Source of the DNA: Sphingomonas sp. BGYR3
GTDB lineage: Bacteria; Pseudomonadota; Alphaproteobacteria; Sphingomonadales; Sphingomonadaceae
Length of the DNA stretch: 64,000 nucleotides
NCBI RefSeq assembly: GCF_025153455.1
Contig: NZ_JANZNT010000001.1
Span: 186,001 to 250,000, forward strand
Direction of reading: 5' to 3'
A program made the translations under genes and the position numbers. Shown one piece after another: positions 28,517-35,303 of this stretch. Within the stretch, counting starts at the first letter, position 1. Each line of letters begins with the position of its first letter. The notes under the pieces are model-generated. The model ran no database searches and was not told the DNA's origin. It worked only from the letters and a program-made list of their open reading frames with translations.

Positions 28517-32668
<4,152 letters not shown>

Positions 32669-32750
32669 AGCTGAGGATTGCCCTTGTTCTATCAAAAGGT
32701 AGTTCAATCAGAATTCGTACCCGGTGACCCACCGGATCGGGCACGCAAAA

Positions 32751-32809
32751 GACGCCAAAAAAGCCGCGCGTCCATCGCCCCGTGGCGAGGATGGCGGCTT
32801 TGCGGCGTC
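32751..32809 (-). promoter_or_regulatory. Terminator-like hairpin in the rpoB leader (candidate attenuator)
   Basis: On the minus strand, between the rpoB promoter and ATG, a stem AAGCCGC/GCGGCTT (32761-32767 with 32794-32800) with inner pairing is followed directly by a run of six T (plus A 32757-32762). GACGCC/GGCGTC (32751-32756 with 32804-32809) could extend or compete with the stem. No upstream gene on this strand needs terminating here. Confidence 0.55.
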
Positions 32810-32879
32810 ATGAGCCCGGCTGATCCATTCATTGGCACGCTGCGCGACGGCGAACCTTTCCCGATCGGACGGTGTTGGC

Positions 32880-32908
32880 GATATAGGCGCAGCGCCGGGT
32901 CATGTCAA
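32880..32908 (-). promoter_or_regulatory. rpoBC promoter
   Basis: On the minus strand a consensus -35 TTGACA (32903-32908) and -10 TATATC (32880-32885) are exactly 17 nt apart, about 210 nt before the rpoB ATG. The rest of 32669-33077 holds the leader, the attenuator-like hairpin and the upstream region of the Pro-rich gene; no other gene is seen. Confidence 0.8.
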
Positions 32909-33077: not shown

Positions 33078-34238
33078 ATGAAGAAAAATCGCCTCATCGC
33101 TCGCACGGCCACCCTGGCGCTGATTGCCACGCTGGCTGCCCCCGCAATTGCTCAGGACATCGCACCCGCGCCCGCTCCGGTCCAGCCGGTTCAGGCCCCG
33201 TCCGCACCGACGACGTCCGCACCGACGACGACCGCGCCGGTCATCATTCGTCAGGCCGCGCCCGCGCCGACCCAGACGACGGCCGCCCCGTCCATTCCCG
33301 CCGCGACCCCCCAATCCGGCCCGAGCGCAGCCCAGTCCGCGCCGAGCGCCACTGTCGCGCCGGAAGCACTGGCTCAGGTCGAACAGGAACAGGCAGCAGC
33401 GCGTGAGGCCGCACAGCGCAATCGGGAGGCTCAGGCCCGCCGGTCTGCCGCCAACACCGCAGCGAGCGACGAACCTGCACGGGCAGAAGCGGCTCCGGCA
33501 GCCGAGGTTGCGCCGCCTCCCACGTTGAATGAGGCCCCGGCGGTCGATCCCGCGGTCCAGTCGCCCCCGCCCGTCGCGGCAACGCCCGCGCCGGAAGCTG
33601 CACCGCCCGCCGATAGCGGCTTCGACGCGCCGGCAACGGCAGAGAGTTCGACCGACTGGACGCCGTGGATCGTTGGCGTGGCCGGCATCGGTGCCGCCTT
33701 TGCGCTGCTTGCATGGGCCGCGACCCGGCGCCGCCGCGCTGCCCCGGATCCGGTCGTGGCCAATCGAGAGGTCAATCGCCCGATTGAGCCGAAGCCTCGC
33801 CCGATCGAGCCCCGCCCGATGACGGTCGCCACGCCGCAGGCTGCGACGGTCGAGCCGGTTCAGCACGCGCCAGCGATGGCGGCGACCGCCACACCGCTGG
33901 TCGCGCACGGCGTTTCGCCTGCGACGCATCACGAGCATTCGGCGGTGCTGAAGCCGGGTCATGAGGGCATGGGCCGTCACGAACGGGCTGCGCTTGCCGG
34001 TCCGACGGCGGACAATCCGTTCCTGACTCGCCGGGCCCGGCTGAAGCGCGCGCGCTTCTATGACGAGCGTGAGCGGATGGGCCTGGTGGATGCGGCGGCG
34101 GCTGCGCCGGCCCGGACCCCGGCCGCCCCTGCGGCTCAGCCGGTCGGTGCCGCGCCGCGACAGGAGGTCGAACGGCCGCGGGTGATCAAGCAGGTCGGAT
34201 GGCCCGGCAGCTTCAAGCCCGCCTTTGGCCAGAGCTGA
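33078..34238 (+). CDS. Exported Pro/Ala-rich protein with one membrane anchor
   Basis: This 386-aa protein has a signal peptide (MKKNRLIARTATLALIATLAAPAIAQ). A low-complexity Pro/Ala/Thr region with a Gln/Ala/Glu-rich helix (EALAQVEQEQAAAREAAQRNREAQARR) follows, then one transmembrane helix near residues 198-217 (WIVGVAGIGAAFALLAWAA). A basic Pro-rich segment and a short C-terminal domain (NPFLTRRARLKRARFYDERERMGL) end it. The last part is the most conserved-looking. No enzyme motif is seen; a periplasm-spanning or envelope scaffold role is possible. It is inserted, on the opposite strand, between rplL and rpoB. Confidence 0.75.
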   Translation: MKKNRLIARTATLALIATLAAPAIAQDIAPAPAPVQPVQAPSAPTTSAPTTTAPVIIRQAAPAPTQTTAAPSIPAATPQSGPSAAQSAPSATVAPEALAQVEQEQAAAREAAQRNREAQARRSAANTAASDEPARAEAAPAAEVAPPPTLNEAPAVDPAVQSPPPVAATPAPEAAPPADSGFDAPATAESSTDWTPWIVGVAGIGAAFALLAWAATRRRRAAPDPVVANREVNRPIEPKPRPIEPRPMTVATPQAATVEPVQHAPAMAATATPLVAHGVSPATHHEHSAVLKPGHEGMGRHERAALAGPTADNPFLTRRARLKRARFYDERERMGLVDAAAAAPARTPAAPAAQPVGAAPRQEVERPRVIKQVGWPGSFKPAFGQS

Positions 34239-34347: not shown

Positions 34348-34728
34348 TTACTTGACCTCGACGGTCGCGCCAGCTTCTTCGAGCTGCTTCTTGATCTTCT
34401 CGGCTTCGTCCTTGTTGACGCCTTCCTTGACCGGCTTCGGAGCGCCTTCGACCAGCGCCTTGGCTTCGGTCAGGCCCAGGCCGGTGATGGCGCGGACTTC
34501 CTTGATGACGTTGATCTTCTTGCCACCGTCGCCGGTCAGGATCACGTCGAACTCGGTCTTTTCTTCAACCGCAGCAGCGGCAGCGCCACCGCCGGCGGGG
34601 CCAGCAGCAACGGCAACGGCAGCGGCGGCCGAAACGCCCCACTTTTCTTCGAGCAGCTTCGACAGCTCAGCCGCTTCCAGGACGGTCAGTTCGGACAGCT
34701 GGTCAACCAGCGCGTTCAGGTCAGCCAT
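34348..34728 (-). CDS. rplL: 50S ribosomal protein L7/L12
   Basis: This 126-aa stalk protein has the N-terminal dimerisation helices ([31 protein letters not shown]), an Ala/Gly-rich hinge (residues 34-53) and a C-terminal factor-binding domain ([39 protein letters not shown]). It recruits translational GTPases to the ribosome. The ATG at 34728 was taken, not the one at 34740. It follows rplJ after 59 nt and is closed by a strong terminator. Confidence 0.99.
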
Positions 34729-34787
34729 GATAAACTCCAATCAATCGGGTTAAAGTCGGTATATTCCGGTATCGAAGGCCGCGTGGA

Positions 34788-35303
34788 TTACGCGGCTTCC
34801 TTCTCGCTATAGGCCTTGAAGACACGGGCGAGCTGCCCGGCCGGCGCCTGGGTGATGCTTGCGAGCTTCTGTGCCGGGGCCTGGATCAGGCCGATCAGCT
34901 TGGCGCGCAGTTCATCCAGCGACGGCATCGAGGCAAGCGCCTTGATGCCTTCCGCGTCGAGCACCGTGCTGCCCATCGCGCCGCCGACGATTTCGAGCTT
35001 GTCGTTCGTCTTGGCGAAATCCACGGCCACCTTGGCGGCGGCAACGGGATCGGTCGATGTGGCCAGCGCGGTCGGGCCGGTGAGCAGGTCGGCAATGCCG
35101 GCATACTCGGTGCCCTCGAGCGCGATCTTGGCGAGACGGTTCTTCGAGACCTTGTAGCTCGCGCCGGCGTCACGCATCTTGTTGCGGAGGTTCGTCGACT
35201 GCGCGACGGTCATGCCCAGATTGCGGGTGACCACCACGACGCCGACCTCCGAAAAGGTGCGGTTCAGCTCGGCAACGGCATCGGCCTTCTGCGAACGATC
35301 CAT
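34788..35303 (-). CDS. rplJ: 50S ribosomal protein L10
   Basis: This 171-aa protein anchors L7/L12 to 23S rRNA. N-terminal RNA-binding features are visible ([57 protein letters not shown]), and the C-terminal helix that binds L12 dimers ends [13 protein letters not shown]. The ATG at 35303 has GAGGAGA just upstream; the frame stays open to 35435 without conserved sequence. It begins a two-gene rplJL unit with its own promoter and long leader, where L10 is expected to repress translation. Confidence 0.99.

Follow-up and report, generated by a model that had tools for sequence, protein, structure and literature searches.

A conserved two-domain RNA leader upstream of rpoBC in Sphingomonadaceae that probably controls the amount of RNA polymerase

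The window analysed here is a 64,000-nt stretch of Sphingomonas genome DNA, in which the element under study is read on the minus strand and lies upstream of rpoB. The rpoB gene served by this leader occupies positions 28517–32668 of the minus strand, with the first base of its ATG at 32668, and rpoC lies 3' of it on the same strand (28433–24153). The nearest minus-strand gene upstream of the leader is rplL (34728–34351), and the region of rplL and rplJ (34351–35303, minus strand) is located beyond a divergent gene. This open reading frame (33078–34238, plus strand) is the sole gene separating rplL from rpoB; it is Ala/Pro-rich and membrane-protein-like, with a partial match at one other locus compared (L040). 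A strong terminator-like hairpin with a T8 tail follows rplL (34300–34255, minus strand). Since rplL ends at 34351 and is followed by this hairpin and then by the divergent gene, the E. coli-type arrangement, in which rplL and rpoB share one transcription unit, is absent from the window. An earlier note on this DNA had stated that no upstream gene needs termination ahead of rpoB, and the layout agrees with it: rplL has its own T8 hairpin, and the intervening gene is divergent.

The rpoB promoter, on the minus strand like all features of the leader, consists of a -35 element TTGACA (32903–32908), kept in relatives, and a -10 element TATATC (32880–32885) at a spacing of 17 nt. The transcription start would be expected near 32873. 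This near-consensus promoter stands where the earlier note had placed it, and the pair is conserved among the leaders of relatives. Of the 130 leaders examined, 122 have a TTGACA/TATATC-like pair with a score of 9 or more out of 12, and in 113 of these 122 the spacing is 17 nt. Meanwhile, a strict scan of the window listed neither a promoter nor a terminator at the rpoB leader, and the leader of the window folds no better than its own shuffles (z -0.97). The single sequence alone is not above chance; the significance of the leader is comparative.

For the comparison, rpoB loci were gathered from 151 genomes of the genus, 80 named genomes, and a selection from the order and the class. The consensus fold from 60 aligned Sphingomonas leaders contains four helices, P1, P2, P3, and P4. 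Judged by sequence comparison, the rpoB leader in Sphingomonadaceae is a conserved two-domain RNA, composed of a 5' domain, a linker, and a P3-P4 hairpin.

The 5' domain (32872–32816) is the main conserved element; the earlier note spotted the hairpin but missed this domain. P1 is formed by the 5' strand CCGTCCGATC (32863–32872) and the 3' strand GATCAGCCGG (32816–32825); it covaries among relatives, and its pairing is imperfect in the window species. Inside P1 lies an internal loop, with GGGAAA on the 5' side (32857–32862; family consensus GGGAAAUG / GGGACAUG) and AATGAATG on the 3' side (32826–32833; family consensus ..ACGAATNG). The internal loop is sequence-conserved among leaders as GGGAAAUG / ACGAAUNG. 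P2, a covarying helix with the 5' strand GGTTCGC (32850–32856) and the 3' strand GCGTGCC (32834–32840), carries the nearly invariant apical loop CGTCGCGCA (32841–32849), found in 66 of 74 leaders. This loop, in the form (C)GUCGCGCA, is nearly invariant across Sphingomonadaceae leaders. The loop includes a GCGC palindrome (32849–32841), which is retained in most lineages seen and through which a loop-loop contact between two RNAs could be possible. We also notice an additional hairpin between the transcription start and the 5' domain at five loci (L100, L102, L104, L223, and L242).

The second domain is the terminator-like hairpin. As the earlier note had described, a stem with six U stands close ahead of rpoB, at 32798–32757 and 89 nt (about 90 in that note) from the ATG. 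P4 is composed of the 5' strand with its A tract, AAAGCCGC (32794–32801; stem part GCCGC, 32798–32794), and the 3' strand GCGGC (32763–32767). Between them extends an apical stem-loop (32768–32793), variable in sequence with its pairing kept. The U run that follows (32757–32762) has 6 nt in the window and 3–6 nt in 60 related leaders. The closing helix P3 pairs GACGCC (32804–32809) with GGCGTC (32751–32756), which lies past the U run, so that P4 and the U run both lie inside P3. The earlier note had read the GACGCC/GGCGTC pair as a competing structure; that reading fails, as the pair is nested outside P4 and extends the same hairpin across the U run. In 74 leaders, 38–96 nt separate the end of the hairpin from the start codon of rpoB. 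A possible third stem-loop (32713–32745) occurs in many relatives and is absent from others, and does not belong to the conserved part.

Both P1 and P2 show many compensatory changes in the alignment of 60 Sphingomonas leaders. In a pairing test, native strand pairs were compared with strands permuted among 74 leaders. Native pairing beat permuted pairing in P1 (z -15.6), P2 (z -15.2), P4 (z -5.9), and the apical stem (z -12.7). When 57 leaders were aligned by sequence only, paired cells made up 84.6% versus 76.1% after shuffling, and the covariation score was 0.329 versus 0.179, with none of 500 shuffles as high; structures slid along this alignment reached at most 0.125. Here, P2 has double changes in 6 of its 7 pairs, and the top pair of P4 shows a compensatory change from C-G to A-U in 8 of the 57 leaders. 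An alignment of 77 distinct sequences gives double-sided changes in 23 of 29 pairs, a count from a model-fitted alignment that leans towards the model. On the other hand, P3 has 93–96% of cells paired, and its changes are mostly single-sided, largely from G-C to G-U. P3 gives little covariation evidence because it is nearly invariant, and its conservation could stem from sequence reasons. From these alignments, P1, P2, P4, and the apical stem are backed by covariation, and P3 is conserved and hardly covaries. A lack of conservation of the stem was part of what would have refuted the earlier note's reading; the stem is conserved in relatives, with P4 and the apical stem covarying.

Eight alternative pairings were tested in the same 74 leaders, including P1 strands with hairpin strands and the 5' domain or the hairpin with downstream RNA. 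None rose above permuted pairing (z -0.9 to +4.2). The 5' P1 strand with the 5' strand of the hairpin gave z +0.3, as did the 3' P1 strand with the 3' strand of the hairpin; the hairpin with downstream RNA gave z +2.6 and no covariation. Since no tested alternative pairing covaries, a terminator/antiterminator switch is unlikely, and a conserved pairing that would exclude the terminator, as expected of a switch attenuator, was not found among them. The attenuation proposed in the earlier note keeps its dedicated promoter and its terminator-like hairpin but loses its switch between competing structures.

These results bear directly on a classical attenuator with mutually exclusive terminator and antiterminator, whether a riboswitch, a leader peptide, or an L10-type control as in B. 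subtilis rplJL. Such a device would account for the terminator-like hairpin in the leader, and an ATG precedes the P2 loop in frame in 56 of 74 leaders; however, its comparative prediction already fails, the alternative pairings being without covariation, and we consider it very improbable. The ATG often lies in the internal loop and would start a peptide M-x-R-R-R-A-A (e.g. L029). An ATG-initiated reading frame of at least 20 codons reaches the hairpin in 47 of 74 leaders. Against a leader peptide, the window species has no in-frame start (by eye), and the loop codons CGT CGC GCA vary little or not at all at their wobble positions, a sign that the RNA itself is constrained. Leader-peptide attenuation was set aside on these nearly invariant wobble positions and on the 14 of 74 leaders that have no start in that frame.

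Whether the hairpin terminates transcription was approached through a terminator score. The score is based on a published formula, and only the comparison of scores counts; for each leader it takes the highest-scoring hairpin within the final 260 nt, in some cases one other than P4. The best hairpin with a T tail scores above zero in 81% of 145 leaders versus 2% of shuffled leaders. The median score is 17.6 for the leaders versus 56.2 for the hairpins after rplL in the same collection, and the hairpin of the window scores 35. Scores far below those of the rplL terminators suit a partial terminator or a pause. The U run has only 3–4 nt in 28 of 60 leaders, so termination there may be weak or absent. 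At L100 and L242, the best hairpin lies elsewhere, although the 5' domain is kept (5' domain by eye), and at L223 no terminator scores at all.

The position of P3 adds a further aspect. One arm of P3 is transcribed only once polymerase has passed the U run, so that read-through RNA is part of the conserved form; this hints at a function in the complete mRNA. The leader might then be a site for a protein (β/β', holoenzyme, or a ribosomal protein) through which the complete rpoBC mRNA is controlled in its translation or its stability, with the second hairpin as part of the folded mRNA and the U run incidental. The 93–96% pairing of P3 past the U run would fit selection on the read-through form, and so would the 10 of 60 leaders whose U run is only 3 nt long and the locus without a scored terminator (L223). 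Yet the hairpin and its T tail are retained far above chance. Moreover, the start site is not obviously sequestered, given that the hairpin ends 38–96 nt away and no downstream pairing covaries. We regard a protein site of this kind as rather unlikely.

A covariance model of the leader, R1, was built to describe its distribution. R1 has one strong match in its own genome (81.6 bits), and the next match, at 22 bits, is the reverse strand of the same place. A search of the genome with the P3-P4 pattern revealed no other such hairpin, only two other matches without fitting arms. Across the family, R1 found one match per genome in 107 of 250 genomes (E ≤ 0.01, strict filters). RpoB is directly downstream in 28 of 28 family loci checked, and the matches of about 20 further genomes, compared by eye, agree with rpoB positions. 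In one genome (G049), the rpoB match at the start region of the gene falls into four pieces in different frames, probably owing to sequencing errors in the assembly.

This linkage matters for the idea that a terminated transcript of about 115 nt is a trans-acting small RNA, sharing its promoter with rpoBC. The strong promoter, the conserved loops, and the terminator-like end are what such an RNA would show. Nevertheless, the element stands beside rpoB, and not on its own, wherever it was checked, and P3 can form only with the read-through RNA; we take a small RNA to be highly improbable.

Many family loci carry a second leader type, GCUUCGAGCAAGG..AUGCGCGGGG..GGAAGGAAGC. In this type (Erythrobacter/Novosphingobium), P1 and P2 again beat permuted pairing (z -9.5 and -11.5), and the GCGC-containing loop and the P4 hairpin are kept. 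R1 recognises several of these leaders, weakly to clearly (40.8 bits at L222). Outside the family, 16 loci from sister families of the same order, with rplL 150–327 nt before rpoB, gave no significant R1 match, and R1 found no rpoB-leader match outside Sphingomonadaceae in a sample of the class. Two weak matches outside the family (G436 and G555) were rejected, since their neighbours, tRNA-Asp and rpmJ genes, mark them as ordinary alphaproteobacterial terminators. Both have the same form as the leader hairpin, AAAAGCCGCC..GGCGGCTTTTTCGCGT.

Among 28 other alphaproteobacteria, 26 have rplL and rpoB 95–334 nt apart; in the remaining two the gap measures 724 and 841 nt. In Sphingomonadaceae, rplJL is usually far from rpoBC, with variable genes between and sometimes on the opposite strand; in the Erythrobacter/Novosphingobium relatives, rplJL is on the strand opposite to rpoBC. 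By these gene orders, the lost linkage of rplJL and rpoB is characteristic of the family. The earlier note had suggested that the leader replaces the lost L10-L12 linkage. The loss is indeed usual in the family, but the leader also occurs where rplL is still linked: at L106 (347 nt; R1, 33 bits), at L243 (376 nt), where the 5' domain was parsed and R1 did not find the leader, and probably at L101 (280 nt), where the leader is weak (R1, 17 bits). As at least one linked locus and probably three carry it, the leader is not simply a replacement. At the deep branch L221, with rplL and rpoB 267 nt apart, R1 gave no match.

We notice other conserved hairpins between rplL and rpoB in the loci compared. 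Eight loci of a sister family (L107, L108, L205, and L208–L212) have a conserved hairpin GGTCGG..CCGGCCTTTCGGCGTC shortly past rplL, which looks like an E. coli-type rplL-rpoB attenuator. A different conserved hairpin, CCGTTTTCAGA..TCTGAAGCGGTTT, lies between rplL and rpoB at loci of the Emcibacter type (L109, L110, and L217–L219).

Rfam 15 gave no relevant match for the leader of the window and six relatives. The L10 leader family RF00557 did not match the rpoB leader even at E 5; this model also misses the rplJ leader of the window. A mobile or plasmid origin was rejected, as no similar DNA was found in plasmids. We found no description of a sphingomonad rpoB leader in the open literature; rpoB is absent from the main text of a Zymomonas transcript map (PMC7566282) and of Sphingopyxis dRNA-seq papers (PMC7713065, PMC6472365). 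Taken at the level of sequence, our comparisons show that rpoBC has a structured two-domain leader, specific to the family, present in a single copy, and outside the catalogue searched. It would be a new RNA as far as the searched catalogues and the open papers show.

Based on its conserved two-part structure, its single genomic copy, and the lack of a match in the RNA catalogue, the leader probably controls the amount of RNA polymerase made. With moderate confidence, we propose a cis-acting structured rpoBC leader, conserved in most Sphingomonadaceae, that would work as a partial transcription attenuator set by a factor. Some polymerases would stop or pause at the U run (32762–32757), and a trans-acting factor would recognise the 5' domain and set the fraction that reads through. 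The factor may touch the polymerase or stabilise the hairpin, with no switching between two base-pairing states. By analogy with L4 at the S10 leader, we infer that the 5' domain serves as the recognition site and the hairpin as the attenuator or pause, coupled by the bound factor. Should a polymerase subunit, a Nus factor, or a ribosomal protein play this part, the result would be feedback on the supply of RNA polymerase.

Another reading, which we hold to be distinctly unlikely, is that RNA polymerase itself, as free subunits or as the elongating enzyme, is bound by the 5' domain, a cellular RNA that would directly sense polymerase supply on the nascent mRNA. If true, polymerase supply would be sensed via termination or antitermination at the P3-P4 hairpin.

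The put antitermination RNA of phage HK022 is a promoter-proximal structured RNA that acts on its own polymerase. The rpoB leader is likewise promoter-proximal and structured and could act on its own polymerase; unlike put, it serves a cellular operon. In an antitermination of this kind, the nascent 5' domain would bind its own polymerase in cis and let it pass this terminator and later ones over the 8-kb rpoBC operon. The nearly invariant unpaired loops on a variable scaffold, without a pairing switch, would fit such a device, as would a 5' domain that is always promoter-proximal and ahead of polymerase genes. We judge this account to be quite improbable.

The leader offers a testable subject. 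This RNA, present in one copy, covaries strongly and accompanies rpoB family-wide, and its two separable domains and clear loops make the control of polymerase amount accessible to experiment. After a gene rearrangement that extends through the family, rpoBC stands behind a promoter and a probable RNA control region of its own. Even in E. coli, the setting of the amount of core RNA polymerase is incompletely understood (PMC4670729).

Several known systems share parts of this design. In the B. subtilis rplJL leader, L10(L12)4 acts by attenuation through mutually exclusive anti-antiterminator, antiterminator, and terminator structures, and the L10 target has a kink-turn and a UAA (PMC4538822). 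The proposed rpoB leader would resemble it as a protein-controlled attenuator, at a gene cluster related to rpoBC; in contrast to rplJL, it shows no supported switch. The E. coli S10 leader is structured and has an intrinsic termination site, and L4 acts there on the polymerase paused at its attenuator hairpin; no pairing switch is obligatory (PMC10931766). In attenuation of this type, the cognate protein together with NusA raises termination. The rpoB leader is likewise structured, with a terminator-like hairpin and without a supported switch, and agrees only partly in terminator strength, whereas the gene family, the domain structure, and the loops differ. For E. coli rpoB itself, an attenuator in the rplL-rpoB intergenic region (Ishihama and Fukuda 1980; Dykxhoorn et al. 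1996; cited in PMC4670729) and autogenous control of rpoBC are reported (PMC4670729, PMC10931766); by these reports, control ahead of rpoB is already a known kind. The E. coli attenuator is, like the Sphingomonas element, a terminator-like structure ahead of rpoB that would lower rpoBC transcription. The E. coli attenuator sits within the rplKAJL-rpoBC unit, whereas the Sphingomonas leader has its own promoter and an upstream structured domain, with rplJL located elsewhere.
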